IMG/VR virus record: IMGVR_UViG_3300039307_000285
Span: 1-44,469 of that record
Strand: one strand, 5' to 3'
DNA from: a virus
Length of the DNA: 44,469 bases
A program made the position numbers and the translations under genes. Every line of letters starts with the position of its first letter. Within the stretch, counting starts at the first letter, position 1. The notes beneath the pieces are model-generated. The model did no database searches. It saw only the letters and a program-made list of their open reading frames with translations, and was not told where the DNA came from. Below, in pieces: positions 3,362-44,469 of this stretch.

Positions 3362-4072
3362 ATGGAAAAAGCTTTCCTTTATTTGCGAGTGAGCACCCCT
3401 GGACAGGTGGACGGTTTCGGCTTCGATCGCCAGGAGGGAACCTGCCGGGAATATGCCAAGGCAAACGGATATGAGGTTGCCGGGGTATTCCAGGAGAAAG
3501 GCATCTCGGGTGCCAGAGACGAAACCGAGCGCCCTGCTTTCCAGGAGATGATGTCCGCCATCCTGGGCAACGGCGTCAAGATCGTGATTGTGGAGGGGCT
3601 GGATAGGTTAGCCAGGGAATGGGAGATACAGAAGGCCCTGCTGATCTACCTGGCCAGCAAGGGCATCGACCTGATAAGCGCCCGGACCGGGGAGAATGTC
3701 ACCCAGGCCGTGAAGGCAGACCCGATGCAGAAGGCCCTTATCCATATGCAGGCAGTTTTTAGCGAGTTGGAGAAAGATCAGCTTGTGCGGCGGCTGCGGA
3801 AGGCCAGGGACGCCAAGAGCAAAGAGCAGAAGAAGCGCTGTGAGGGCCGCAAAGCCTATGGCCAGACACCTGAGGAGAAGAAGGTCATCGAGCGCATCAG
3901 GGCCATGAGGCGCACCCGGCGGAACAATACTCCGGGAATGACCTTGCAGGAGATCGCCGACCGGCTGAATTCGGAGGGGATCACCACCAAGGACGGAAAG
4001 AAATGGACGCCCACGCAAGTCTACAACGTCGCGGGGAAGAAGGCCAGTAAAGGGAAGGAGGCAAAGCCATGA
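3362..4072 (+). CDS. Small serine recombinase (resolvase/invertase family)
   Basis: A 236-aa resolvase-type protein. Catalytic Ser11 lies in Y-L-R-V-S-T. The D-R-L-A-R motif is at 81-85, F-S-E-L-E-K-D (the helix-E region) at 133-139, and a DNA-binding helix-turn-helix at about 190-225 (M-T-L-Q-E-I-A-D-R-L-N). It cuts and rejoins DNA at specific sites through a phosphoserine intermediate. GAGGGGG stands 8 nt before the ATG. A TATAAA at 3329-3334 could be part of its promoter. It overlaps the next recombinase by ATGA, so the two are translated together. Confidence 0.9.
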   Translation: MEKAFLYLRVSTPGQVDGFGFDRQEGTCREYAKANGYEVAGVFQEKGISGARDETERPAFQEMMSAILGNGVKIVIVEGLDRLAREWEIQKALLIYLASKGIDLISARTGENVTQAVKADPMQKALIHMQAVFSELEKDQLVRRLRKARDAKSKEQKKRCEGRKAYGQTPEEKKVIERIRAMRRTRRNNTPGMTLQEIADRLNSEGITTKDGKKWTPTQVYNVAGKKASKGKEAKP

Positions 4073-5268
4073 AACCAGAACCACAGAGAAGGGCCGCGGG
4101 CTACATTCGTGTATCCACCGTCAGCCAGGCCAGGGAGGGGGAGAGCCTGAAAACCCAGAGGGATTCCATCACCCTCTATTGCAGCAATCATGGCCTGGAA
4201 CTGGCCAACATTTATGCCGATGAGGGCGTGAGTGGCAGGAAGCAGGACCGCCCCGGCCTCGCGGCCCTGCTCAAGGACGCCTCCCAGAAAGCTTTCGATT
4301 GCGTGGTTGTCAGTAGGCTGACCCGTTTCGGGCGCAGCGCCAGGGACCTGGTGAACAACCTCGGGGCCTTGGATGACCACAACATCCGCTTCGTGTCGCT
4401 GAAGGAGAACATAGACACCAGCACCCCCGCCGGTCGGCTGCTGCGCCACGTCCTTATAGGGATCGCCGAGTTCGAGCACGAGACCATCAAGGACCAGATG
4501 CTATCCAACCGTCATGTCCGGGCCAGGCGGGGCGACATCCTGATCGGGAAGCCGCCCTATGGCTACACCTGGGACAAGGGGAGGAAGTGCATTGAGATCA
4601 ATCCCGAGGAGGAAGCGGTCTATCGCCGCATGGTGGGAATGTGCCTGGGGGGGAAGAGCTACAGGGACGTAGCCATCGCCCTGCGCCGGGACGGCATCAA
4701 GGCCAAGTTGGCCCTGTTCTCCTCGACGGTGGTCGGCCAGATTCTCAAGAACCCCTGCTACTACTCGGGGCGGCTGCTGCGCAACACGAATGTTTTCAAA
4801 GGGAACCAGAGGACGAAAGAGGAAAAGCCTGCCGACCAGCATTTCCAGATCGCCCTGCCGCCGCTGATCGACAAGATCACCTGGAGCCGGGTGCAGGAGA
4901 GGATAGCCTTCAACAAGGTCAAGACCAAGCGCACCACGAACCCCAATTTCTGGCTGAGGAACGTCCTGAAATGCGGCGAGTGCGGCGGGGCGATCAAGCC
5001 TAAGTCTGTCCGGGGCCAGTTCGACTACTACTGCTGCTACTGGGCCACCTCCGGGAAGAAGTTCCTGGAGGCCGCCGGGAGGAAGCACAAGTGCCGCCTG
5101 CCCAGCATTCCGGCCCAGGAGATCCATGACCGGGTGAGGTACCACCTGCTTGACGACCTGACCTTCGGCCGGTTCAACATAGGCCCGCAGTACGCCCCCT
5201 CAGTGAAGCCGAACGCGAGAAATGAGCGCCAGAAACGCGAGAAATGGCTAAAAAAAGATGGCAGATAA
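4069..5268 (+). CDS. Large serine recombinase, 3' end replaced by prophage DNA
   Basis: Resolvase domain with Ser16 (Y-I-R-V-S-T) and S-R-L-T-R-F-G-R (82-89), then a Recombinase domain (about 155-275), then a zinc ribbon with Cys302, 305, 322/323 and 342. The family normally has a further long coiled-coil segment of 50-150 residues, which is missing here. Codon 379 (5203-5205) coincides with a Mu-like right end, so the last 21 residues, rich in Lys, Arg and Glu, are phage-end sequence read in frame. The gene is therefore probably disrupted. Its remainder should lie past the other prophage end, outside this window. Confidence 0.8.
   Translation: MKPEPQRRAAGYIRVSTVSQAREGESLKTQRDSITLYCSNHGLELANIYADEGVSGRKQDRPGLAALLKDASQKAFDCVVVSRLTRFGRSARDLVNNLGALDDHNIRFVSLKENIDTSTPAGRLLRHVLIGIAEFEHETIKDQMLSNRHVRARRGDILIGKPPYGYTWDKGRKCIEINPEEEAVYRRMVGMCLGGKSYRDVAIALRRDGIKAKLALFSSTVVGQILKNPCYYSGRLLRNTNVFKGNQRTKEEKPADQHFQIALPPLIDKITWSRVQERIAFNKVKTKRTTNPNFWLRNVLKCGECGGAIKPKSVRGQFDYYCCYWATSGKKFLEAAGRKHKCRLPSIPAQEIHDRVRYHLLDDLTFGRFNIGPQYAPSVKPNARNERQKREKWLKKDGR
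5204..5246 (+). mobile_element. Mu-type phage right end with two transposase-binding-like repeats
   Basis: The sequence starts TGAAGC, the same six bases as the right terminus of phage Mu. It then carries AACGCGAGAAATG twice (5212-5224 and 5234-5246), exactly 22 bp apart. This is the spacing of the adjacent R1 and R2 MuA sites, and the core resembles the Mu AACGCGAAA. The five bases just outside are CTCAG (5199-5203), the expected 5-bp target duplication. Confidence 0.7.
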
Positions 5269-5278
5269 AATCAAATGG

Positions 5279-6076
5279 TCATTGGAAAAATGCGGGGGGG
5301 GGGGTAGCAAGGTCATAATTGGCGATTAGCAACTCGCGGGCTTTCTTCCCTTGCCCACTTTGAGTTCCAGTGCTGTAAGTCGTCTTAACCTCCAAAAAGT
5401 TGAAAATCGCAAAAGTCTGGCGCACTTCCGGGACGTCGTTAAGGCTCAAGAGGAACTGGCCGCTAAGCTGGCGAAGGATCTGCGCCAGCCTGGTAAAATC
5501 CTCCCGGCCGAAGATACCGGGACCATAATCATTCTCATGGCTATAGTAAGGCGGATCGCAATAAAAGAAGGCACCTGGGCCGTCATAACGCCGCAGACAT
5601 TCCTCATAAGGCAGGCTCTCCAAAATCACGCTTTCCAGGCGGTGATGAATCTCATATAGGGCCTCCTCGATACGATAAATCGAGATCGGCCCCCCTCCTG
5701 CATTTGCTCCTCCAAAATGCTTTCCAAAGCCAGCGAAGCCAGTCCGGAAAAGATAGAAGATGCGAGCGGCGCGCTGGATATCGGTAAGGGTTTCCGGGGG
5801 ACTGGCACGCAGCCGCTTAAACTCTTCCCGGCTCTTGAGGCTCCATCTAACGCAGCGCAGGAATTCCTCCGGATGCGCCTGGACCACTCGAAATAGGCAG
5901 ATCACCTCCCCGTTAAGATCATTCAGGACCTCAACGCGGCTGGGGGCCTTCGCCAAAAGGATGGTCCCCGAGCCGCCGAAAGGCTCACAGTAGAGTTGAT
6001 GCTCCGGGAGCAGGTTCAGAATGGTTTTGCATAAAGAACGCTTGCCCCCTAAATAGGGTTTGAGCTTAGATATTAT
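5279..6076 (-). CDS. dam: D12-class adenine-N6 DNA methyltransferase (Dam-like), non-canonical start
   Basis: Conserved N-terminal motifs K-P-Y-L-G-G-K-R and E-P-F-G-G-S-G-T (SAM binding) and the catalytic D-P-P-Y are all in one frame. The first two lie upstream of the earliest ordinary start codon (TTG at 5956). The frame is open back to a TGA at 6086-6088 but contains no ATG, GTG or TTG there. GAGGAG precedes an ATA pair at 6071-6076, given here as the tentative start. Upstream of the TGA, in the same frame, an ATG at 6104-6106 with GGGGGAGG would start M-I-Y-A-Y-P. Last gene of the prophage, like mom in Mu. Probably protects phage DNA. A C11 tract lies near its 3' end. Confidence 0.75.
   Translation of the reverse strand: MISKLKPYLGGKRSLCKTILNLLPEHQLYCEPFGGSGTILLAKAPSRVEVLNDLNGEVICLFRVVQAHPEEFLRCVRWSLKSREEFKRLRASPPETLTDIQRAARIFYLFRTGFAGFGKHFGGANAGGGPISIYRIEEALYEIHHRLESVILESLPYEECLRRYDGPGAFFYCDPPYYSHENDYGPGIFGREDFTRLAQILRQLSGQFLLSLNDVPEVRQTFAIFNFLEVKTTYSTGTQSGQGKKARELLIANYDLATPPPAFFQ
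5294..5304 (-). repeat. C11 tract in the dam 3' end (G11 on plus)
   Basis: Eleven consecutive C on the coding strand encode the T-P-P-P-A near the C-terminus of the methylase. Length changes would alter only the last few residues. Confidence 0.7.
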
Positions 6077-6151
6077 TAAATCTCCTCATGGGTAGGCATA
6101 GATCATGGCCTCCCCCAAAATCTCGCCGCCTTGGGGCTTAGATGCAGCCGG

Positions 6152-7625: not shown

Positions 7626-7816
7626 TTTATTTTCCCCCTCACCCTAACCCTCTCCCCCATTGGGGGAGAGGGGATAAAGGTTGCTGGCAAGGGCAACTCC
7701 TTGCTGGGCAGATCATTGCACCTATCCCTTTTCCCGCAGATATCGCAAAGGCCATAAGATTTAAACCAGGTCAGGGGCCATTGCCGGTCTAAGGCACAAG
7801 AATCGCAATAAAACAT
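7607..7816 (-). CDS. Small zinc-ribbon protein (69 aa) with repeat-derived tail
   Basis: The ATG at 7816 shares a base with the TAA of the tail-tip gene (TAATG), so it is translationally coupled. M-F-Y-C-D-S-C and L-C-D-I-C-G-K give two CxxC pairs, a zinc ribbon. The last 20 or so residues (P-S-P-P-M-G-E-R-V-R-V-R-G) are encoded by a palindrome with CCTCTCCCCC and GGGGGAGAGG arms at 7646-7673, so the C-terminus is repeat DNA read in frame. Role unknown. Confidence 0.6.
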   Translation of the reverse strand: MFYCDSCALDRQWPLTWFKSYGLCDICGKRDRCNDLPSKELPLPATFIPSPPMGERVRVRGKIKCRRIL

Positions 7817-10767
7817 TATTGGCCCACCTTCCAGTTGAATTCGGAAACCACCGGCGTGACCCCGGCTTGATAGACGGTGAAGACCAGCCTGAGGTTGATC
7901 TTCCAGGCATAATACTGGCCGGGCCGCAAATCCTGCCAGGCGCCCCAGGTGCTGCCGTCGGTGGAAATCTGGAGCTGCACCTTGACGTCGGCCTGCCCGG
8001 CGGCGAGGCCGTCCACGTCCGGGATGGAATCCCAATCGGTCCAGCCGTCGACGTCGGCGGTGGGCAGCACGCTCTCGAAAAGGTAATTGGCGGCCACGGT
8101 GACCAGCTTGGCACTCCCCAGGTTGACGAGCTGGGCCGCGGCGATGGTGTAAGATCCGGGTCCGCCCCCGGAGATCTCCAGGTCGCCGGCGCCGTCCTTG
8201 AAGACGCCTCCGGACATGGCGCCGGGCCAGCCGTTGGCGTAGTCATCGTAGGAGGCCAGGATGGTGGCGATGATGCTGGAATTGGTGACCGCCAGGGAGG
8301 AAGCCGCCCCGTAAAAGCCGTTGTAATGGGCGGCCACCCAATAGGTCCCATCTCCATAGCAGGGGCAGGTGGGGATGGCGGCGCGGGCCACGATCTCGGC
8401 GGTGCCCCAGGCGGCGCCCTTGCGCACCTCGTAATCCATCTGCCGGTAGGCGGCCAGCGGATCGGTGGCCTTATCCCAGGTCAGGGACATTTGGCCCGAC
8501 TGGTAGAAGGAGGCCAGCGAGGTGATGGCGGGCAGCCCCTTGGTCATGGGGGCGCCGCTCAGGTAAAAGGTGTAGGCTTCGACCTCGTCCAGGGATTGGG
8601 TGGCGCCCTGCCAGAGGTTGAAGCTCAAAAATTTAACGTACAGGGTTTGCCCGACCTGGCTGGGATCGAAGGGAATCTTGAAGATGGCCTGGTCCAGGCG
8701 GCAAAAGGCGCTGTTCTGGGCGTGGGCGGTGATGGGGGTCAAATAGGCGCCCCGGCGCAAATAGGTGGCCAGCGTATATTTATTGGCCGCGGTGAGGGTG
8801 GCGGTCTCGTAGCTGATGATCTCGCCATCCAAGAAGCAGGCGGTGGCCATGAGGTCGGCGTCCTGCTGGGTCCCGGAGAAGAGGACGCCCCGGCTCTCGC
8901 TCAAATCGACCTGGCAGGAATCGGCGGTATCGGGGTCGCTGCCGGAGGGGAGCTGCGCCGCCAGGACTCCCATGCGGGCCGGGTTGCTGACCTGTCCCGC
9001 CTGCCGGTAGGTAATGCCGTCGAAGCTGATCCAGACCTGGGCGCCGCCCCAGGCGCTACCGCCGCTGACCGCCAGCCACGCTTCATAGCCCTTCTGGGTG
9101 AGTAGCGCCGGGGCCTCGAAGATGATGGGCGGGTTGATGGCGCCGGGATCGGCATTCCAGTTGAGCTGCAAGCCGCCGCAGGGCTGCAGGGTGTGCACCG
9201 CCGGGGTGCCCGCGGCCTCGGGCCATTCCTCCACCAGGAAGTCGAGGGAGCCGTCGTCCGCCTCTTCGATGGAGATGACGCGGCACATCACTCCGGAGAG
9301 GCCCAACTTGGGCACCGTCAGCTTGACCCAATCCATCGGGTCCGGGAGGAAGTAGCGGCCGTCTAACTTGAAGCCGTAGGTATTGCGGATATAGAGGGAC
9401 TTCTGGAGCATGCACTGGCCGATGAACTGCGCCAGGGTTCGGTTGGTGATGGCGTGGGCCTCGACGTTGGTCTGGATGCGGGGGCCGTATTCATCGATGG
9501 CGGTGAGGTCCTTGGGGTCGGCGATGGCGGGGTTGTAGTTGTTGGCCCGGTCGTAATATTCCATCTGGAACCAGTTGTCGGCGTCGGAGATGGCGGTGCG
9601 GGCCGCGGTCACCGGGGGCTTGTTCTTGTCCGCCAGAAAATCGTCGGGGCCCAGGCTGTAAACCGGCGTCAGGTTGGGGGTGAAGGTGACGACGGGGAGG
9701 TTGGAGGTCCGGGCGCCGTAGATGATATTGACGGCCTTGCCGGCGTCCGCGGCGTTGAAGGTATAGAGGCCGTTGACCACCGAATACTGGCCGGCGTTGG
9801 GAGGCCCGGGGACATTCAGGAAAAAGGCGATATCATTGGCATCCTCCTGCCACCACACGTCAAAGTCCTCCAGCCAGTTGGGCACGGCGACCTGGAAAGG
9901 CGAGGCCGGGATGGTGCAGGCAACGGTGGTGGTGGCGGGCGGCGAGCCGGTGGCGGGGGTGTCGCCATAGGGAACCACCGTGAGCTTGCCCCCGGACCAG
10001 ACGATCTCGGAGTTGGCCAGCTGGCAGACGTAGTTGAGGAAGTCGGCGGCCGTCTGCTGGGTGGTCATCTGGGGGCTCAAGAGAATGGCGTTGGCCAGGC
10101 AGTAGTTGCTGAATTGGGTGAGGTCGCCGATGAGGGAGGGATCCCAGCCGCACCCGTAATTCTTATTGGTGAGAAAGTCGTAGATGATATCCGCGGGGTT
10201 GGCGTCGAGGACTCCCTGGGCCTGGTTGTATTGCTTGAGGCCGGCCACCTCGAAGTTGAAGTTAGGGACCTGGCCGCTGCTGCCGAGGGAGAGGCCGGCC
10301 TTGCAGGCCACCGCCAGGCCGGCGTAGGCCAGGGCCTGGGCCGGGTAGTTGGCGCTGAGGTAGCCCCAGGGAGTCGCCGGCCGCAGCCCGAGGGCGATCT
10401 GATCGAAATAATACGAGGGGGGTTCTACCGTGCTCGCCACGTAAACGTTGGGCACCGCCAGGATCGGCCCCAGGCAGATGCCGATCATCACGTCCATTGT
10501 ATAGAGGTAGGAGGATATCTGGGGCACCGAGGAGCGGGAGGCGGTGCCCCCCTTGCCGCCGCCGCCGCCGCTGCTGGTGCTGGTGTATTGGGGGATGGCC
10601 TGGAAGTTGGCGGCCCAGAGGAGGTTGCCGGGGATGCGCTGCTGGCCGTAGACCAGGGCGATGACCGCGCCCTGGCAGGAGCTTTGCGCCAGGTAGCCCA
10701 TGAGGGGCACCTGCTGCTGGGAGGGGCTCTTGGCCTGCTTCTTGATGGCCCCCCCAAAAAGACTCAT
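7816..10767 (-). CDS. Phage tail-tip / host-specificity protein (J-like, GTA type)
   Basis: A 983-aa protein at the end of the tail module. The N-terminus (S-L-F-G-G, then V-P-L-M-G-Y-L-A-Q-S-S-C-Q-G-A-V-I-A-L-V-Y-G-Q-Q-R-I-P-G-N) is typical of lambda J/GTA tail-tip proteins. The middle has the phage tail protein region (A-D-F-L-N-Y-V-C-Q-L-A-N-S-E-I-V-W-S-G-G-K-L), and the C-terminal third has fibronectin-like beta repeats. It makes the central hub and contacts the host. It follows the NlpC/P60 gene, the order seen in siphophages and gene transfer agents. Confidence 0.85.
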   Translation of the reverse strand: MSLFGGAIKKQAKSPSQQQVPLMGYLAQSSCQGAVIALVYGQQRIPGNLLWAANFQAIPQYTSTSSGGGGGKGGTASRSSVPQISSYLYTMDVMIGICLGPILAVPNVYVASTVEPPSYYFDQIALGLRPATPWGYLSANYPAQALAYAGLAVACKAGLSLGSSGQVPNFNFEVAGLKQYNQAQGVLDANPADIIYDFLTNKNYGCGWDPSLIGDLTQFSNYCLANAILLSPQMTTQQTAADFLNYVCQLANSEIVWSGGKLTVVPYGDTPATGSPPATTTVACTIPASPFQVAVPNWLEDFDVWWQEDANDIAFFLNVPGPPNAGQYSVVNGLYTFNAADAGKAVNIIYGARTSNLPVVTFTPNLTPVYSLGPDDFLADKNKPPVTAARTAISDADNWFQMEYYDRANNYNPAIADPKDLTAIDEYGPRIQTNVEAHAITNRTLAQFIGQCMLQKSLYIRNTYGFKLDGRYFLPDPMDWVKLTVPKLGLSGVMCRVISIEEADDGSLDFLVEEWPEAAGTPAVHTLQPCGGLQLNWNADPGAINPPIIFEAPALLTQKGYEAWLAVSGGSAWGGAQVWISFDGITYRQAGQVSNPARMGVLAAQLPSGSDPDTADSCQVDLSESRGVLFSGTQQDADLMATACFLDGEIISYETATLTAANKYTLATYLRRGAYLTPITAHAQNSAFCRLDQAIFKIPFDPSQVGQTLYVKFLSFNLWQGATQSLDEVEAYTFYLSGAPMTKGLPAITSLASFYQSGQMSLTWDKATDPLAAYRQMDYEVRKGAAWGTAEIVARAAIPTCPCYGDGTYWVAAHYNGFYGAASSLAVTNSSIIATILASYDDYANGWPGAMSGGVFKDGAGDLEISGGGPGSYTIAAAQLVNLGSAKLVTVAANYLFESVLPTADVDGWTDWDSIPDVDGLAAGQADVKVQLQISTDGSTWGAWQDLRPGQYYAWKINLRLVFTVYQAGVTPVVSEFNWKVGQ

Positions 10768-12196: not shown

Positions 12197-12229
12197 ACTG
12201 CTCACTGCTCACTGCTCACTGCTCACTAT
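12197..12229. repeat. Heptamer array, TGCTCAC type
   Basis: Four tandem units preceded by TTTGCC hexamers (12186-12195), between the DUF2460 and DUF2163 genes. On the coding strand the unit reads GTGAGCA and carries TGA. Confidence 0.85.
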
Positions 12230-19567: not shown

Positions 19568-19628
19568 TACTGCTCACTGCTCACTGCTCACTGCTCACTG
19601 CTCACTGCTCACTGCTCACTGCTTACTA
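19568..19628. repeat. Heptamer array, eight TGCTCAC units
   Basis: Eight near-perfect tandem heptamers in the gap between the capsid gene and the small gene at 19324. The TAG of the capsid gene abuts the array. Confidence 0.9.
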
Positions 19629-26727: not shown

Positions 26728-28392
26728 CTAATGAAACGGGTCCATCAGGGCCGCATAGGTATCCGGCTGGGTCTTTTTCAGCGCCGCGGCCGCCTTTTCT
26801 ATTTCCTCTTCCCGGGGCGTCCCCTCTGTTCCCCTTTTCCCCTCTTCCCCTTTTCCCCCTTCCCCCTCTTTCTCGGCCCGGTCCTGGTAGTATTGGAAGA
26901 GCCCCATGCTGGCGCCGCCCTCCAGCTGCTCGATGGCGCCTTCCAGGGCGTCGGGGCCGTCGTCGTGCACCGTCTTGCTGGGAAAGTAGAGCATCTGCTC
27001 GATGAGCAGGTCCTGGTTGCCCTGGCCCCGGCAGAAGCGGATCTTGCCCCGCTCCACTAAGGGGCTCAGCCGCGACACCCGGGTCTCCTTGGCGGTCTTG
27101 TGGGTGACGCCCTTGGTGGGCAGGTAGTAGCCGCGGGCCTGGGCGGCGCGGTCGAAGTCCTTCAGCACCAGGCGCTGGAAGGCGTTGTCCTCCACCCCGA
27201 GGCGCCAGAAGCCCCAGCGCGCATGGCGCTCGTAGGCCGCGGCGATGGCCGCCTCCAGGCTGGACTTGCGGATGTAGGCGTCCAGCACGTAGAAGATCGC
27301 CTCCTTGCGCTCGAAGCCCACGATGATGAGGGCCTTGTAGTCGGCGCTGGCCCCGGTCTCGATGGAGGGGTCGAAGAAGCCGGCCACCACCAGGTCCTTG
27401 CCGGCCAGGTCGGCGGCCTCGTAGTAGCGGATCCAGGCCTCCCGGAAGACCCCCTCCTCGTTGATGGGGTCGTTCATCTTCTCGGCGTTGAAGGCCAGCG
27501 TCCCCATGAGGCGCTTCTGCTGGTGCAGCTTGGAGAGCGGGTGCCGGGCCGGCCAGAGGGATTCGCCCTCGGGGGTGATGGCCCGGTAGAGCCGCCGGGT
27601 CCACTCCGGCCAGGGCTCCTCGTCGGAATGTATCGCGGTGTGCAGGGCCGAGCGGTTGGCCAGGATGGTGCCGATCCACAGCAGGCTGCCGTCCGACTCG
27701 AGTGAGGGGTAGACGGTGCGCAGCACCCAGCGCAGCACTTTGCGCACCTGCTCCGGGTTCTGGACGTTGAGGTCGTTTTCCAGGTCGTCCAGGACGATGA
27801 GGTCGGGGCGCCACTGCTTGTGCTTCAGGCCCCGGAGGCGCTGCCCCCGGCCCCGGGCCTTCACCCGGATATCGGTGAGGGTGACGAAGTCGTTGACCGC
27901 CCAGTCCGGGCGCACCAGCTCCCCGAAGTCGCATTTGATCCGGTCGTTGTAGAGCAGCTCCAAATATATATAGCCGGTGAGGTCGCTGGCCAGGTCCTCG
28001 GTGTCGCTGCCGATGATGATGAAACGCCGCAGGCCGTAGCAGATCTGGTGCAGCACGTAGCCGAAGGAGGTGATGGTGGTCTTGGCGAACTCCCGGGGCG
28101 CGGCCACGGCCACCGGCACCACCACCTCAACGCCTGGGCTGCCGGGGCGGCGGTCCAGCAGCTCGATGAGCTCCTGGTGAAACGGCGCGAACTCCTGGGA
28201 GAAATAGTGGGGCAGGTAGGTGCGGAAGAATTCCAGATGGTCGGCGCGGCCCCGCTCCCGCCGCTCCTTCTTGGCGGCCTCGGAGTCATCCTCGAAGCCC
28301 CGGGCCTCCCGGAACAGGCGCCCCAGGATCTCGTCGGCCCGGGCCTGGAATTCCCGTTTGGTATATTTCTTCTTGAGCGTGACTTCGGGCAT
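26728..28392 (-). CDS. Terminase large subunit (Mu gp28-like)
   Basis: 554 aa. An ATPase domain has a deviant Walker A (A-A-P-R-E-F-A-K-T-T, 97-106) and Walker B L-I-V-L-D-D (198-203). A C-terminal RNase H-like nuclease follows with acidic residues in F-F-D-P-S-I-E and V-H-D-D-G-P-D-A-L. It drives DNA packaging into the prohead and makes the headful cut. GGAAAG precedes the ATG. The last 60 residues form a Glu/Gly/Lys-rich linker. Position ahead of portal-MuF matches Mu. Confidence 0.9.
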   Translation of the reverse strand: MPEVTLKKKYTKREFQARADEILGRLFREARGFEDDSEAAKKERRERGRADHLEFFRTYLPHYFSQEFAPFHQELIELLDRRPGSPGVEVVVPVAVAAPREFAKTTITSFGYVLHQICYGLRRFIIIGSDTEDLASDLTGYIYLELLYNDRIKCDFGELVRPDWAVNDFVTLTDIRVKARGRGQRLRGLKHKQWRPDLIVLDDLENDLNVQNPEQVRKVLRWVLRTVYPSLESDGSLLWIGTILANRSALHTAIHSDEEPWPEWTRRLYRAITPEGESLWPARHPLSKLHQQKRLMGTLAFNAEKMNDPINEEGVFREAWIRYYEAADLAGKDLVVAGFFDPSIETGASADYKALIIVGFERKEAIFYVLDAYIRKSSLEAAIAAAYERHARWGFWRLGVEDNAFQRLVLKDFDRAAQARGYYLPTKGVTHKTAKETRVSRLSPLVERGKIRFCRGQGNQDLLIEQMLYFPSKTVHDDGPDALEGAIEQLEGGASMGLFQYYQDRAEKEGEGGKGEEGKRGTEGTPREEEIEKAAAALKKTQPDTYAALMDPFH

Positions 28393-35343: not shown

Positions 35344-35775
35344 TCACTGATTACTGGCCACCCTGTCCCTCATCGCCTTCAGCCCGTTCAGCACCTTCTG
35401 GGCCTCGGACAGCGAGAGCCATTCCGGGGCGGCTACGTGAAACCGCCGCCGCAGGAATTTCCGCAGGGCGCCTTCCCGCTCATGGGGCGCGGCGTTGCTC
35501 AGGGCGTCCCAGCGCCTGCGGATCTCGGCCAGCTGCTCCGCCGTGGCCCGCCCCTCCCTGGCCGTGGCCTTTTTGGCGGGATGCGCTGCGCTTTCCCGCC
35601 CTACGCATTCCACTAAATGCTCGATGACCAGGCCGGCCCGGTCGAAACTCAATTCAGAGCTGCTTTTGACCCGGAATCCGCCCAGCATCTCGCGGTAGGC
35701 GCCGTCGTCGGCCCCGAAGAGCTGCCGCCGCATCACCTGAATCTTCTTCTGCTGGGGGCGGGAGATGGGCTTCAC
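35344..35775 (-). CDS. GemA / Mu gp16-like regulator, interrupted by an in-frame repeat peptide
   Basis: 143 aa. R-P-Q-Q-K-K-I-Q-V-M-R-R-Q-L-F-G, then Y-R-E-M-L-G-G-F-R-V-K-S-S-S-E-L-S and the final helix Q-K-V-L-N-G-L-K-A-M are DUF1018 (GemA/gp16) hallmarks. In Mu-like phages the family modulates host gene expression and replication. At about 55-70 the peptide C-V-G-R-E-S-A-A-H-P-A-K is palindrome P1 read in frame. ATGA overlap with the preceding gene. The TGA stop lies in a heptamer. Confidence 0.8.
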   Translation of the reverse strand: MKPISRPQQKKIQVMRRQLFGADDGAYREMLGGFRVKSSSELSFDRAGLVIEHLVECVGRESAAHPAKKATAREGRATAEQLAEIRRRWDALSNAAPHEREGALRKFLRRRFHVAAPEWLSLSEAQKVLNGLKAMRDRVASNQ

Positions 35776-39663: not shown

Positions 39664-39737
39664 TACTGCTCACTGCTCACTGCTCACTGCTCACTGCTCA
39701 CTGCTCACTGCTCACTGCTCACTGCTCACTGCTCACT
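39664..39737. repeat. Largest heptamer array, ten TGCTCAC units
   Basis: Ten nearly perfect tandem heptamers between the MuB-like and zinc-finger genes, with TTTAC leading in. Confidence 0.95.
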
Positions 39738-39741
39738 CCCC

Positions 39742-40467
39742 TCACCCTCCCGCCGCCGCCTTGCGCTCCTTGAGGGCCATCTCCATCACCTTTTCGGTAA
39801 CGGCCGTCCCCGGATTGGCCTTCACCAGGCGCTCCACCTTCTTCAGGTTGCCGATCACTTCTCCGAACTGTCCGGTCTTCGCCTCTTCATGGATGCGCAC
39901 GGCCAGGGCCCGGGGGATCTCCGCAGGCGGCTCCATCAGCTCCAGGGCCATCATCTGCACGTCGGCCACGGTCAGGGGCTTGAATTCGACGATCTCCCCC
40001 AGGCGCCGCCAGGTGCGCTCGCTCTTGCGGTAAATCGCCTCCCGCCCGCTGCCTTCGCTCACCAGGATGACCGGCGCCCCGGAGAAATCCAGCAGGTCCC
40101 GCAGCGTCTCTAACAGGTCCTCCCGGCGAATCACCCGGTCGCCTTCATCGATCAGCAGCATCCGGGGGCGCCGTTTCAGCTCGTCGATCACCTGGCGCAC
40201 GTTCTTCTTGGTGGTCACCAGGGACGCCAGGTTCAGGGCCAGGGCGATATCCTCCATCATCCAGGAGGCGGACCATTTCTTGTGGCTCCGCAGGTACACG
40301 GCCCGGGCGTTTTGCACCACATAGCGCTCCACGGCCCAGGTCTTGCCCAGGCCGGTGCGGCCGTCCAGCAGCCCCAGGCCTTGCCCGGTGAGCACGCTCT
40401 CCCACAGGGCCTCGGCGGCCAGGAAGGTCTTCTGGACATTCTCGGTGACCACGAATTTTTCCCGCAT
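39742..40467 (-). CDS. MuB-like transposition ATPase
   Basis: 241 aa, GGAGG upstream. AAA+ ATPase with Walker A G-R-T-G-L-G-K-T (36-43) and Walker B M-L-L-I-D-E-G-D (104-111), then V-I-L-V-S-E-G-S-G as sensor. It binds target DNA and delivers it to the transposase, with target immunity in Mu. Directly follows the transposase gene, as in Mu. Lacks the long N-terminal HTH domain of Mu B. Confidence 0.9.
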   Translation of the reverse strand: MREKFVVTENVQKTFLAAEALWESVLTGQGLGLLDGRTGLGKTWAVERYVVQNARAVYLRSHKKWSASWMMEDIALALNLASLVTTKKNVRQVIDELKRRPRMLLIDEGDRVIRREDLLETLRDLLDFSGAPVILVSEGSGREAIYRKSERTWRRLGEIVEFKPLTVADVQMMALELMEPPAEIPRALAVRIHEEAKTGQFGEVIGNLKKVERLVKANPGTAVTEKVMEMALKERKAAAGG

Positions 40468-40499: not shown

Positions 40500-40551
40500 T
40501 GCTCACTACTCACTGTTCACTGCTCACTGCTCACTGTTCACTGCTCACTGG
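40500..40551. repeat. Heptamer array between transposase and MuB genes
   Basis: About seven units, TGCTCAC with TGTTCAC and TACTCAC variants. The transposase TGA stop lies in it. Confidence 0.85.
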
Positions 40552-42230
40552 CAAACGGCCAGCCGGGCCCGCTTCTCGATGGACTCCTTCAGCATCCGGT
40601 AGGCCTGGTTCTCCTCCCGGATCAGGGCCATGCGCCCCAGGGCGGCTTCCGGCAGCTCTTCGCCCTGCAGTTGCCGCACCCGCATGGCCGCATACCAATC
40701 CACGTCGCTGGCATAAAGCTCTTCCGGCTCCGGCTCCAGATCCGCAGCCCTTTCCAGCACCTTGACCCCGGCCACCAGCTCTTCCAGGGTTTGTAGGGGC
40801 GGACCCATGTGTCCGCCCGCCTCCGGCATCTCAAACCCGCTCTCCCGCACCTCCGCCCGGGGCACCAGGTGGATGACGTTGCTCTCGGCCTGGGACGCGA
40901 AGCTGAAAGGCCTTGTCGGGGCGGCTTCCAGCCGCCCTGCCGCCTCCTCCTGCAATCGCTCCAGGGGCGTCCGCTCCCCGCGGCGGTAGTCGCCGGCCGG
41001 CTGCGCCTCGAAAGGCGCCGCCGCGTATTTGCGGCCGTCCCGGGGATCCGCCACCAGCACCGCCCCACCCCGCACCCCCAGATAGACCTCGACGCGCACG
41101 CCGCCGGGATAGGGCATCTCCCGCACCTGCCAGGGTTCGCCCCGGAAATCGAAGCACCCCGCGGCGTCCAGGGTGCGCCGCTCCCGGTGGAAGACGTGGC
41201 CCCAGGCCGCGGGGTCGATATCCACCAGGTCCTTGACCGTCAGCCAGGCCTCCTCCTTGCTCAGAGACAGGCGCCGGTGCCGGGTGCGGTTATATTCCTG
41301 CAAATACCAGCAGAGTTCCTGGTTCATCTCCGCCAGGGAGAATTCCCGGCGCTCCCAGCCCGGGTCCCGGAAAAAGCGGGCCTCGAAGCACCGCCACAGG
41401 GTCTTCCAGCCGCTTTCCACCTTGCCGGTGGCCTGGGGGCGCCCCGCCTCATGGGCCAGCAGCCGCACCCCGGCCGCCTCAGAGCAGAATAGCTGGAAGG
41501 CCTTGGTCTTATTGAGAGGCCCCTGGTCCAGGTAGAGGGTGTCGGGGAGGCCCCGGAAAGGCGCATGGGTCTCCACCTTCGACCAGGCCCATTGCAGGAA
41601 GTCGATGCCGTCGTCGGCGTTCTCCCCCTTGGCCACGCAGTAGCGCATTACCCGGAAGCCGGAAAAATCATCGACTAGCTGCCAGATCCAGACGCGCTCC
41701 CGCATCTCCCGGTAATCGCGGTTCTTGAAGATGATGGGGGAGAGCTTGATGACCCACTCGCCGCCCCGGTGGCGATGGCACTGGAAAGATTCGCTGCGGG
41801 AGGCGTCCATCTGGTGCAGCTCGTTGGGCCGCGACGCCTCGAAGCGGGCCTCCAGCCGCTGCACCCGGGGATGCAGCCCCAGCTCCCGGGCCAGGCGGTT
41901 GACGGTGCCCTCGGGGATGGCGAGCGCCAGCCCGCAGCCCTTCCGGGCCGCCTCTATCTGGGCGTCCGCGGTGGTCAGGGCCCGCACCCCTTTTTTGGGA
42001 TGGTATTTTTCCTCGATGATCGCCTTCACCGCCTCTACATATTCCGGGCGTTTGCGTTTCCCTTTGGTCTTGGGGGCCTTGCGGCCCGTGGCGCCGAAGC
42101 GCTTCTCCCGCTCCCGGTGGAAGGTGCCCAGCGACATGCCCAGGAGCGGCAGGCGCCGGGCCAGGAGATCGCCCTTTTTGCCGTGCTCCTCCCTTTCCCA
42201 ATCCCGCACCAGCCGGGAGAAGTTCCGCAT
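40545..42230 (-). CDS. MuA-like DDE transposase
   Basis: 561 aa from the ATG at 42230 (GGAG seven nt before), preferred to the ATG at 42245. An N-terminal HTH region, then a DDE core: Asp in H-Q-M-D-A-S (about 142), Asp in L-Y-L-D-Q-G (about 235), Glu in G-K-V-E-S-G (about 272). D and E are 36 residues apart as in retroviral integrases. A Mu-type C-terminal barrel and helices follow. It cuts and joins prophage ends. Two repeat-derived peptides (G-R-L-E-A-A-P-T and G-G-H-M-G-P-P-L-Q) lie in the C-terminal part. Confidence 0.92.
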   Translation of the reverse strand: MRNFSRLVRDWEREEHGKKGDLLARRLPLLGMSLGTFHREREKRFGATGRKAPKTKGKRKRPEYVEAVKAIIEEKYHPKKGVRALTTADAQIEAARKGCGLALAIPEGTVNRLARELGLHPRVQRLEARFEASRPNELHQMDASRSESFQCHRHRGGEWVIKLSPIIFKNRDYREMRERVWIWQLVDDFSGFRVMRYCVAKGENADDGIDFLQWAWSKVETHAPFRGLPDTLYLDQGPLNKTKAFQLFCSEAAGVRLLAHEAGRPQATGKVESGWKTLWRCFEARFFRDPGWERREFSLAEMNQELCWYLQEYNRTRHRRLSLSKEEAWLTVKDLVDIDPAAWGHVFHRERRTLDAAGCFDFRGEPWQVREMPYPGGVRVEVYLGVRGGAVLVADPRDGRKYAAAPFEAQPAGDYRRGERTPLERLQEEAAGRLEAAPTRPFSFASQAESNVIHLVPRAEVRESGFEMPEAGGHMGPPLQTLEELVAGVKVLERAADLEPEPEELYASDVDWYAAMRVRQLQGEELPEAALGRMALIREENQAYRMLKESIEKRARLAVCQ

Positions 42231-42231
42231 A

Positions 42232-42375
42232 TCAATCTCCGGCATGGGGCTTTTCCTTGTCTCCCCGCTGAGCCAGGGTCAGGAGTGCGCAGATCATATA
42301 GCCCCCGACGGCGCCAATGAACAGGCCGGCGATCAGGCCGGCGATGAATCTGGCGCTGAAAATAAACTCGGCCAT
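42232..42375 (-). CDS. Small membrane protein (47 aa)
   Basis: GAGGAGGGGG before the ATG at 42375. One or two helices: F-I-A-G-L-I-A-G-L-F-I-G-A-V-G-G-Y-M. Stop overlaps the transposase leader. Unknown function. Confidence 0.6.
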   Translation of the reverse strand: MAEFIFSARFIAGLIAGLFIGAVGGYMICALLTLAQRGDKEKPHAGD

Positions 42376-43902: not shown

Positions 43903-44147
43903 GCCGCGGTCTCCGTAGGGGCGGCTTCCAGCCGCCCTTCCTTCTTGCCGCCAAACAGCCTCGCCGGCACCCCGGCCTCAATCAGCGCCGCCACGATCCG
44001 GGGCACCCCGTAGCCTTTGGAGACCGCGCCTGCGGTGATCCCCAGTTGCGCCGCGATATCCTTGGCATAGATGCCGCGCTTCACCATCTCCCCCCGGATC
44101 AGCCGCCGCCATTCCTTGCGCTTGGTGAATTTGTCCTTGCCCATCAT
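43893..44147 (-). CDS. HTH regulator (84 aa), Ner-like position
   Basis: Starts by ATGA overlap. Helix-turn-helix Y-A-K-D-I-A-A-Q-L-G-I-T-A-G-A-V-S-K-G-Y-G at residues 27-47. The C-terminal G-R-L-E-A-A-P-T-E-T is a P2 palindrome (43915-43937) read in frame. In the Mu early region a small HTH protein (Ner) holds this type of place. Confidence 0.65.
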   Translation of the reverse strand: MMGKDKFTKRKEWRRLIRGEMVKRGIYAKDIAAQLGITAGAVSKGYGVPRIVAALIEAGVPARLFGGKKEGRLEAAPTETAACQ

Positions 44148-44469
44148 TCCACCTCTAACTCGTTTTCCTGGCGCCGCCGTCTCCGGCTCAGCATCTTGAT
44201 CTGCCGCTCCGTCTTGGCCAGGTCCAGCAGCCGCCCTTCCTCCTCATTAATCAGCCGCAGCCGCAGGCAGCCGTTCAGCGCCGCCAGGGGCAGCGCCGAC
44301 TCCGCCGCCCAGCACAGCACCGGGACCTCTGCGGTTTCCGGGAGGTTGCCCTTGCTGTCCGCGGCCCAGGCGTCCAGGCGGGGCACGCTCACCCGGTTGG
44401 GCAATCCCTCGGCCTTAAAGGCCAGGTTCATGCGCTCCGCGATCTGCGGCCGGCTGAATCGGCACCCCG
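44144..44469 (-). CDS. DNA-binding early protein, N-terminus outside window
   Basis: The frame is open to the window edge: F-S-R-P-Q-I-A-E-R-M-N-L-A-F-K-A-E-G-L precedes and includes the first ATG (44431), which suggests an HTH that starts further right. The C-terminal part has a Lys/Arg helix (I-K-M-L-S-R-R-R-R-R-Q-E-N). Partial gene. Probably a regulator in the early region. Confidence 0.55.
   Translation of the reverse strand, partial: GCRFSRPQIAERMNLAFKAEGLPNRVSVPRLDAWAADSKGNLPETAEVPVLCWAAESALPLAALNGCLRLRLINEEEGRLLDLAKTERQIKMLSRRRRRQENELEVE

Follow-up and report, generated by a model that had tools for sequence, protein, structure and literature searches.

The window, the whole 44,469-base IMG/VR record analyzed here (a single metagenomic record), contained no terminal repeats. 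Its main genes were encoded on the + strand up to position 5268 and on the − strand from there to the end of the window. On the left, a small serine recombinase gene overlapped the start of a large one; phage genes followed to the right of the large one (Table 1). The small recombinase matched the Pfam Resolvase domain (5e-30) and part of the Recombinase domain, as well as phrog_125 (invertase) and phrog_95 (integrase). Farther to the left, a 23-bp tandem repeat (CACTATYAGATTTAATAGCGGGG, 1814-1859) lay just upstream of an ORF at 1919-2938. The repeat possibly represents iterons of a mobile element, and the ORF resembled rolling-circle replication initiators by eye, which is a guess; profile and sequence searches returned no relatives of this ORF, and its single-sequence structure prediction had a mean pLDDT of 34.6.

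Table 1 Features of the 44,469-base window around the recombinase-phage junction and in the phage
Feature	Position	Strand	Basis or remark
Small serine recombinase, 236 aa	3362..4072	+	Host side; overlaps start of interrupted gene; intact by length
Host-coded part of large serine recombinase	4069..5203	+	Codons 1-378 and first base of codon 379
CTCAG, presumed 5-bp target sequence	5199..5203	+	Sequence; second copy would fall beyond the record
Phage right end, starts TGAAGC	5204..5273	+	Terminal ~70 bp aligns with right ends of L009, L011, and L013 and left end of L016
Phage-derived tail of recombinase frame	5206..5268	+	20 sense codons (KPNARNERQKREKWLKKDGR) and stop
Outer presumed transposase-binding site (R1 core), AACGCGAGAAATG	5212..5224	+	L009, L011, and L013 have GACGCGAGAAATG there
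Inner presumed transposase-binding site (R2 core), AACGCGAGAAATG	5234..5246	+	30 nt inside terminus
D12-class adenine methyltransferase	5279..6085	−	Pfam MethyltransfD12 2.8e-16; phrog_56 1.5e-62; adjoins right end
Terminase large subunit	26728..28392	−	phrog_38 1.3e-92
GemA/Mu gp16-like protein	35344..35775	−	Pfam GemA 1.9e-17; phrog_286
MuB-like AAA ATPase (transposition protein)	39742..40467	−	phrog_296 6.5e-30; Pfam AAA_22
MuA-like DDE transposase	40545..42245	−	phrog_310 1.1e-30; conserved D147, D240, and E277 (alignment with L002 and L004)
Early regulator gene, cut by record end	44144..44469	−	phrog_2345 transcriptional regulator

The large recombinase ORF (4069-5268) matched the Pfam domains Resolvase (PF00239, 1e-37), Recombinase (PF07508, 5.6e-13), and Zn ribbon (PF13408, 2.1e-7). 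Residues 4-369 aligned with positions 85-442 of the phrog_95 integrase profile (4.6e-95), and the match stopped there, at 442 of 651 profile positions; the junction between host and phage DNA (5203/5204) fell after residue 378. Four full-length homologues (463-546 aa) ran approximately 90-150 residues beyond the junction. Judged by the profile and the four homologues, the C-terminal domain, with the coiled coil that follows the zinc ribbon, was incomplete in the interrupted recombinase, in agreement with the loss of the usual C-terminal region described in an earlier note on this DNA. The recombinase retains the catalytic domain, the recombinase domain, and the beginning of the zinc ribbon and loses the coiled-coil part; the missing stretch corresponds to the remainder of the zinc domain and its coiled coil. 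In serine integrases, the coiled coil of the zinc domain carries interactions that control synapsis (PMC3783163). The truncated recombinase is probably inactive as an integrase. The same note had assigned the last 21 codons to phage DNA: the tail was indeed phage-derived, but codon 379 (5203-5205) was a hybrid, part host and part phage, so the count was reduced to 20 codons plus two bases. Judged by gene content, the interrupted gene, like the small recombinase gene next to it, may have belonged to a mobile element, which would then have been knocked out.

By its gene content, the DNA to the right of 5204 is a transposable phage. Terminase, portal, and tail genes lay between the transposase gene and the right end, which is a Mu-like order with the late genes toward the right end; the tail was of the GTA/siphovirus-like type (Phage-tail_3 and Rcc01698 domains). 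The methyltransferase next to the right end has a TTG as its listed start; the open frame continued upstream of this codon as far as a stop at 6086-6088, and this upstream part offered no ATG, GTG, or TTG. The last codons of the gene included 11 consecutive G. Many phage genes were separated by arrays in which a 7-base unit, CACTGCT or a variant of it, was repeated (at 12197, 15751, 18455, 19569-19610, 23093, 30230, 34906, 39665-39725, and others); relatives including L002 and L016 had such arrays too.

The features claimed for the right end were found at the junction largely as described. TGAAGC began at 5204 on the + strand, and the 13-mer AACGCGAGAAATG occurred exactly at 5212 and 5234, spaced by 22 bp; these were its sole copies in the window on either strand. 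Apart from low-complexity arrays of short units and the tandem repeat at 1814-1859, no other 13-mer in the window was repeated at a distance of 14-60 bp, and of 20 windows simulated with a first-order Markov model, 18 were without any close exact 13-mer pair. The TGAAGC hexamer was present 31 times in the window (17 copies on the + strand and 14 on the − strand) and alone is uninformative. The change of gene strand was real, and the recombinase frame ended at 5268 with the tail given in the earlier note. A step in GC content was also present, but at the junction itself it was weaker than claimed: 60.1% in 3362-5203 and 52.5% in 5204-6100, followed by 61-63% across the remaining phage.

Relatives of the phage were found among uncultured IMG/VR contigs (L002/L003, L004, and L009-L016), with tail proteins 62-86% and transposases 37-74% identical to those of the window; a scan with the tail protein (7816-10767) yielded seven relatives. 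A scan of the genome collection with the transposase alignment returned only weak Mucispirillum matches (29-32%). L002, L003, L004, L010, L012, L014, and L015 stopped before an end of the type sought. In L009, L011, and L013, the phage homology ended with the common site pair, at window positions 5207 (L009) and 5203 (L011 and L013), and the DNA beyond it had no meaningful similarity to the window flank. L011 and L013, which came from different metagenomes, agreed in their right end and shared one flank, within the third of a row of TPR-protein genes, and the flank of L009 was the terminator of a TPR gene. The three contigs represented two distinct insertions besides that of the window. Because one right end was found beside differing host DNA, the right-end sequence is not part of the recombinase gene. 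The R2 core was identical and at equal distance from the terminus in the right ends of L009, L011, and L013 and in the left end of L016. The R1 site of the relatives had GACGCG, unlike the AACGCG of the window, and site patterns allowing GACGCG matched only these three right ends and the left end of L016. The D12 methyltransferase was not found between the tail genes and the right end in L009, L011, and L013.

These junctions bear on whether the tail might be the genuine end of a short recombinase, with the 13-mer pair as an internal coding repeat (charged and coiled-coil-like, ARNERQKREK). The frame does stay open for 21 codons past the junction, but the same stretch of approximately 65 bp ended the phage homology in L009, L011, and L013 beside unrelated genes (the DNA encoding the tail adjoined TPR genes or the terminator in other contigs), the inner site and its neighboring bases recurred in a left end (L016), and the recombinase profiles and homologues had a much longer C-terminus. 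Such an origin of the tail is extremely improbable.

The left end of the phage was approached through the truncated regulator gene at 44144-44469. L016 was 97.3% identical to window positions 43954-44469 and continued to a left end. Bases 1-428 of L016 were host flank, matching the TPR repeats beside L011 (93.5%, uninterrupted host repeats), after which the sequence changed: from 429 it read TGAGGGGGGATGAG, starting TGAGGG, and AACGCGAGAAATG began 30 nt in. The R2 site of the window starts 30 nt from 5204, in the same register. The ungapped terminus-to-terminus match between the right end of the window and the left end of L016 was highest at offset 0 (43 of 70 positions; 27 of 70 at the next best offset). 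In addition, the flank of L009 was identical to the host flank of L016 in 73 of 73 bases, and it stopped at the T predicted by the common register. The 30-nt register, the 43/70 match, and the stop of the L009 flank place the right terminus at the T at 5204. If the layout of the window phage is as in L016, another 1.66 kb or so would separate 44469 from its left end, and its total length would be approximately 41 kb. L009 and L016 were also considered as two ends of one insertion and rejected as such: both adjoined one host sequence on one and the same side, and the phages pointed in opposite directions relative to it. As a separate observation, the identity of 97.3% in 43954-44469 contrasted with only approximately 64% DNA identity between the window and L016 in the neighboring transposase region, which points to the early regulatory segment having been exchanged between phages recently.

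The position of the terminus also bears on whether the join at 5203/5204 could be chimeric, with a host contig and a phage contig fused during assembly. The record is metagenomic, and a phage end that is present at several places in a community is prone to misjoins; however, the host sequence stopped exactly at the terminus base predicted by the ends of the relatives, and the phage end would be right even if this particular flank were wrong. We consider a chimera very improbable. Fixed ends with differing flanks were observed in the window, L011/L013, L009, and L016, that is, at three distinct positions plus that of the window.

The second base of the terminus was variable. The right ends of L011 and L013 started with TAAAGC and that of L009 with TTTAGC; therefore, the first two bases were TG at the right end of the window and the left end of L016, TA in L011/L013, and TT in L009. 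As aligned, the features conserved across the right ends are the terminal T, the site pair, and its spacing. In Mu-type chemistry, each 3′ end normally carries a conserved CA (PMC3562280). Ends with TA and TT may belong to decayed prophages, or the group may tolerate other terminal bases.

The transposition genes, the junctions of the relatives, the register of the L016 left end, and the recombinase profile and homologues led us to conclude, with high confidence, that a transposable phage of the Mu/B3 kind inserted by DDE transposition at 5203/5204 in the large serine recombinase gene; on the same evidence, the Mu-like right end that the earlier note had placed at 5204 inside the truncated gene was upheld. 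Against this conclusion stand the TA and TT right ends of the relatives, which are unexpected for Mu-type chemistry, and the pentamers flanking the other ends, which do not fit the target preference of Mu. In the proposed event, the phage would have been oriented with its right (late-gene) end toward the 5′ part of the recombinase gene. The two 13-bp repeats in the right end (R1 and R2) and the matching site in the left end are presumably bound by the transposase; 3′-OH ends would be exposed at the terminal T and joined to the target, which would be cut with a stagger. As in Mu, CTCAG would have been duplicated. The recombinase frame now ends in 20 phage-coded residues.

Mu-type phages can delete DNA adjoining one of their ends by intramolecular transposition. 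The recombinase may accordingly have been broken already, or its end may have been lost in a deletion made by the phage, and in either case no C-terminal part would follow the left end. No close relative of the recombinase, an intact one included, was found among the viral contigs and collections searched, which leaves room for such a history. Nevertheless, the frame was open and profile-like up to the junction, and the simplest event is one without a deletion, so that prior damage or deletion is unlikely.

Insertion at 5203/5204 would have used CTCAG as the target. This pentamer fits CYSRG, the target preference of Mu as quoted in PMC5977238, a fit expected for approximately 1 in 128 random pentamers. 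The bases beside the other ends (CCCCG, AGGCT, and CGGGC) do not fit it. Of the four insertion points known, all but that of the window were in or beside one type of tandemly repeated TPR-protein gene (L009:12873-12948, L016:1-428, and L011:6935-9271). In L009 and L016, opposite phage ends were located 10 bp apart, just after one terminator-like hairpin. The B3-like phage Ab30 is described as having insertion hotspots in repeats that form hairpins, where neither orientation is favored (PMC5977238); thus, a TPR or hairpin hotspot may be known behavior. A phage group that combines relaxed termini (TG, TA, and TT) with a strong preference for few host hotspots, such as a chromosomal TPR-gene repeat, is conceivable but rather doubtful, and with few junctions the hotspot is a lead only.

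For an uncultured transposable-phage lineage, the analysis fixed the right end to the base. Host and phage parts of the recombinase gene could be told apart, which guards against reading the truncated form as a new short integrase. With the junctions in L009, L011/L013, L016, and the window, there is a starting point for work on how this lineage recognizes its ends and chooses its targets. It is common for one mobile element to land in a recombinase gene that may belong to another, and the insertion of a new, uncultured transposable phage in a recombinase gene is in this sense ordinary; the variable second base of the relatives and their TPR insertions are less so.

Compared with Mu (AF083977), the window phage was similar in its MuA-like DDE transposase, MuB-like ATPase, and GemA, in having two right-end sites with a spacing of approximately 22 bp and an AACGCGA core, in the TG at its right terminus (Mu has TG at both termini), and in carrying a modification gene at the right end (mom in Mu and the D12 methyltransferase in the window phage). 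It differed from Mu in that its sites were approximately 9 bp closer to the terminus, its 13-mer was AACGCGAGAAATG and not AACGCGAAA, its tail was of another type, and its transposase was only distantly related. The right end of Mu in AF083977 reads TGAAGCGGCGCACGAAAAACGCGAAAGCG, and the earlier statement that it starts with TGAAGC was correct. Both ends of Mu and both ends of B3 begin with TG (GenBank records). Because the relatives begin with TAAAGC or TTTAGC, the identity of the hexamer with that of Mu is probably due to chance, and the real evidence is the 13-mer pair and the register of terminal T, 30 nt, and site; TGAAGC was set aside as evidence of kinship with Mu, since it was not conserved in the relatives.

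The Pseudomonas phages B3 and Ab30 (transposable siphophages, saltoviruses) were similar in that B3-type transposases were among the best GenBank phage matches (23-27% identity), and the ends of B3 begin with TG and carry GCGCGAAAT-like motifs. They differed in showing no close nucleotide similarity and in having other end sites. The IMG/VR relatives L009, L011, L013, and L016 had an identical end architecture, but they were inserted in or beside TPR genes; L009, L011, and L013 were without the right-end methyltransferase, and L009 and L011/L013 differed in the second terminal base.
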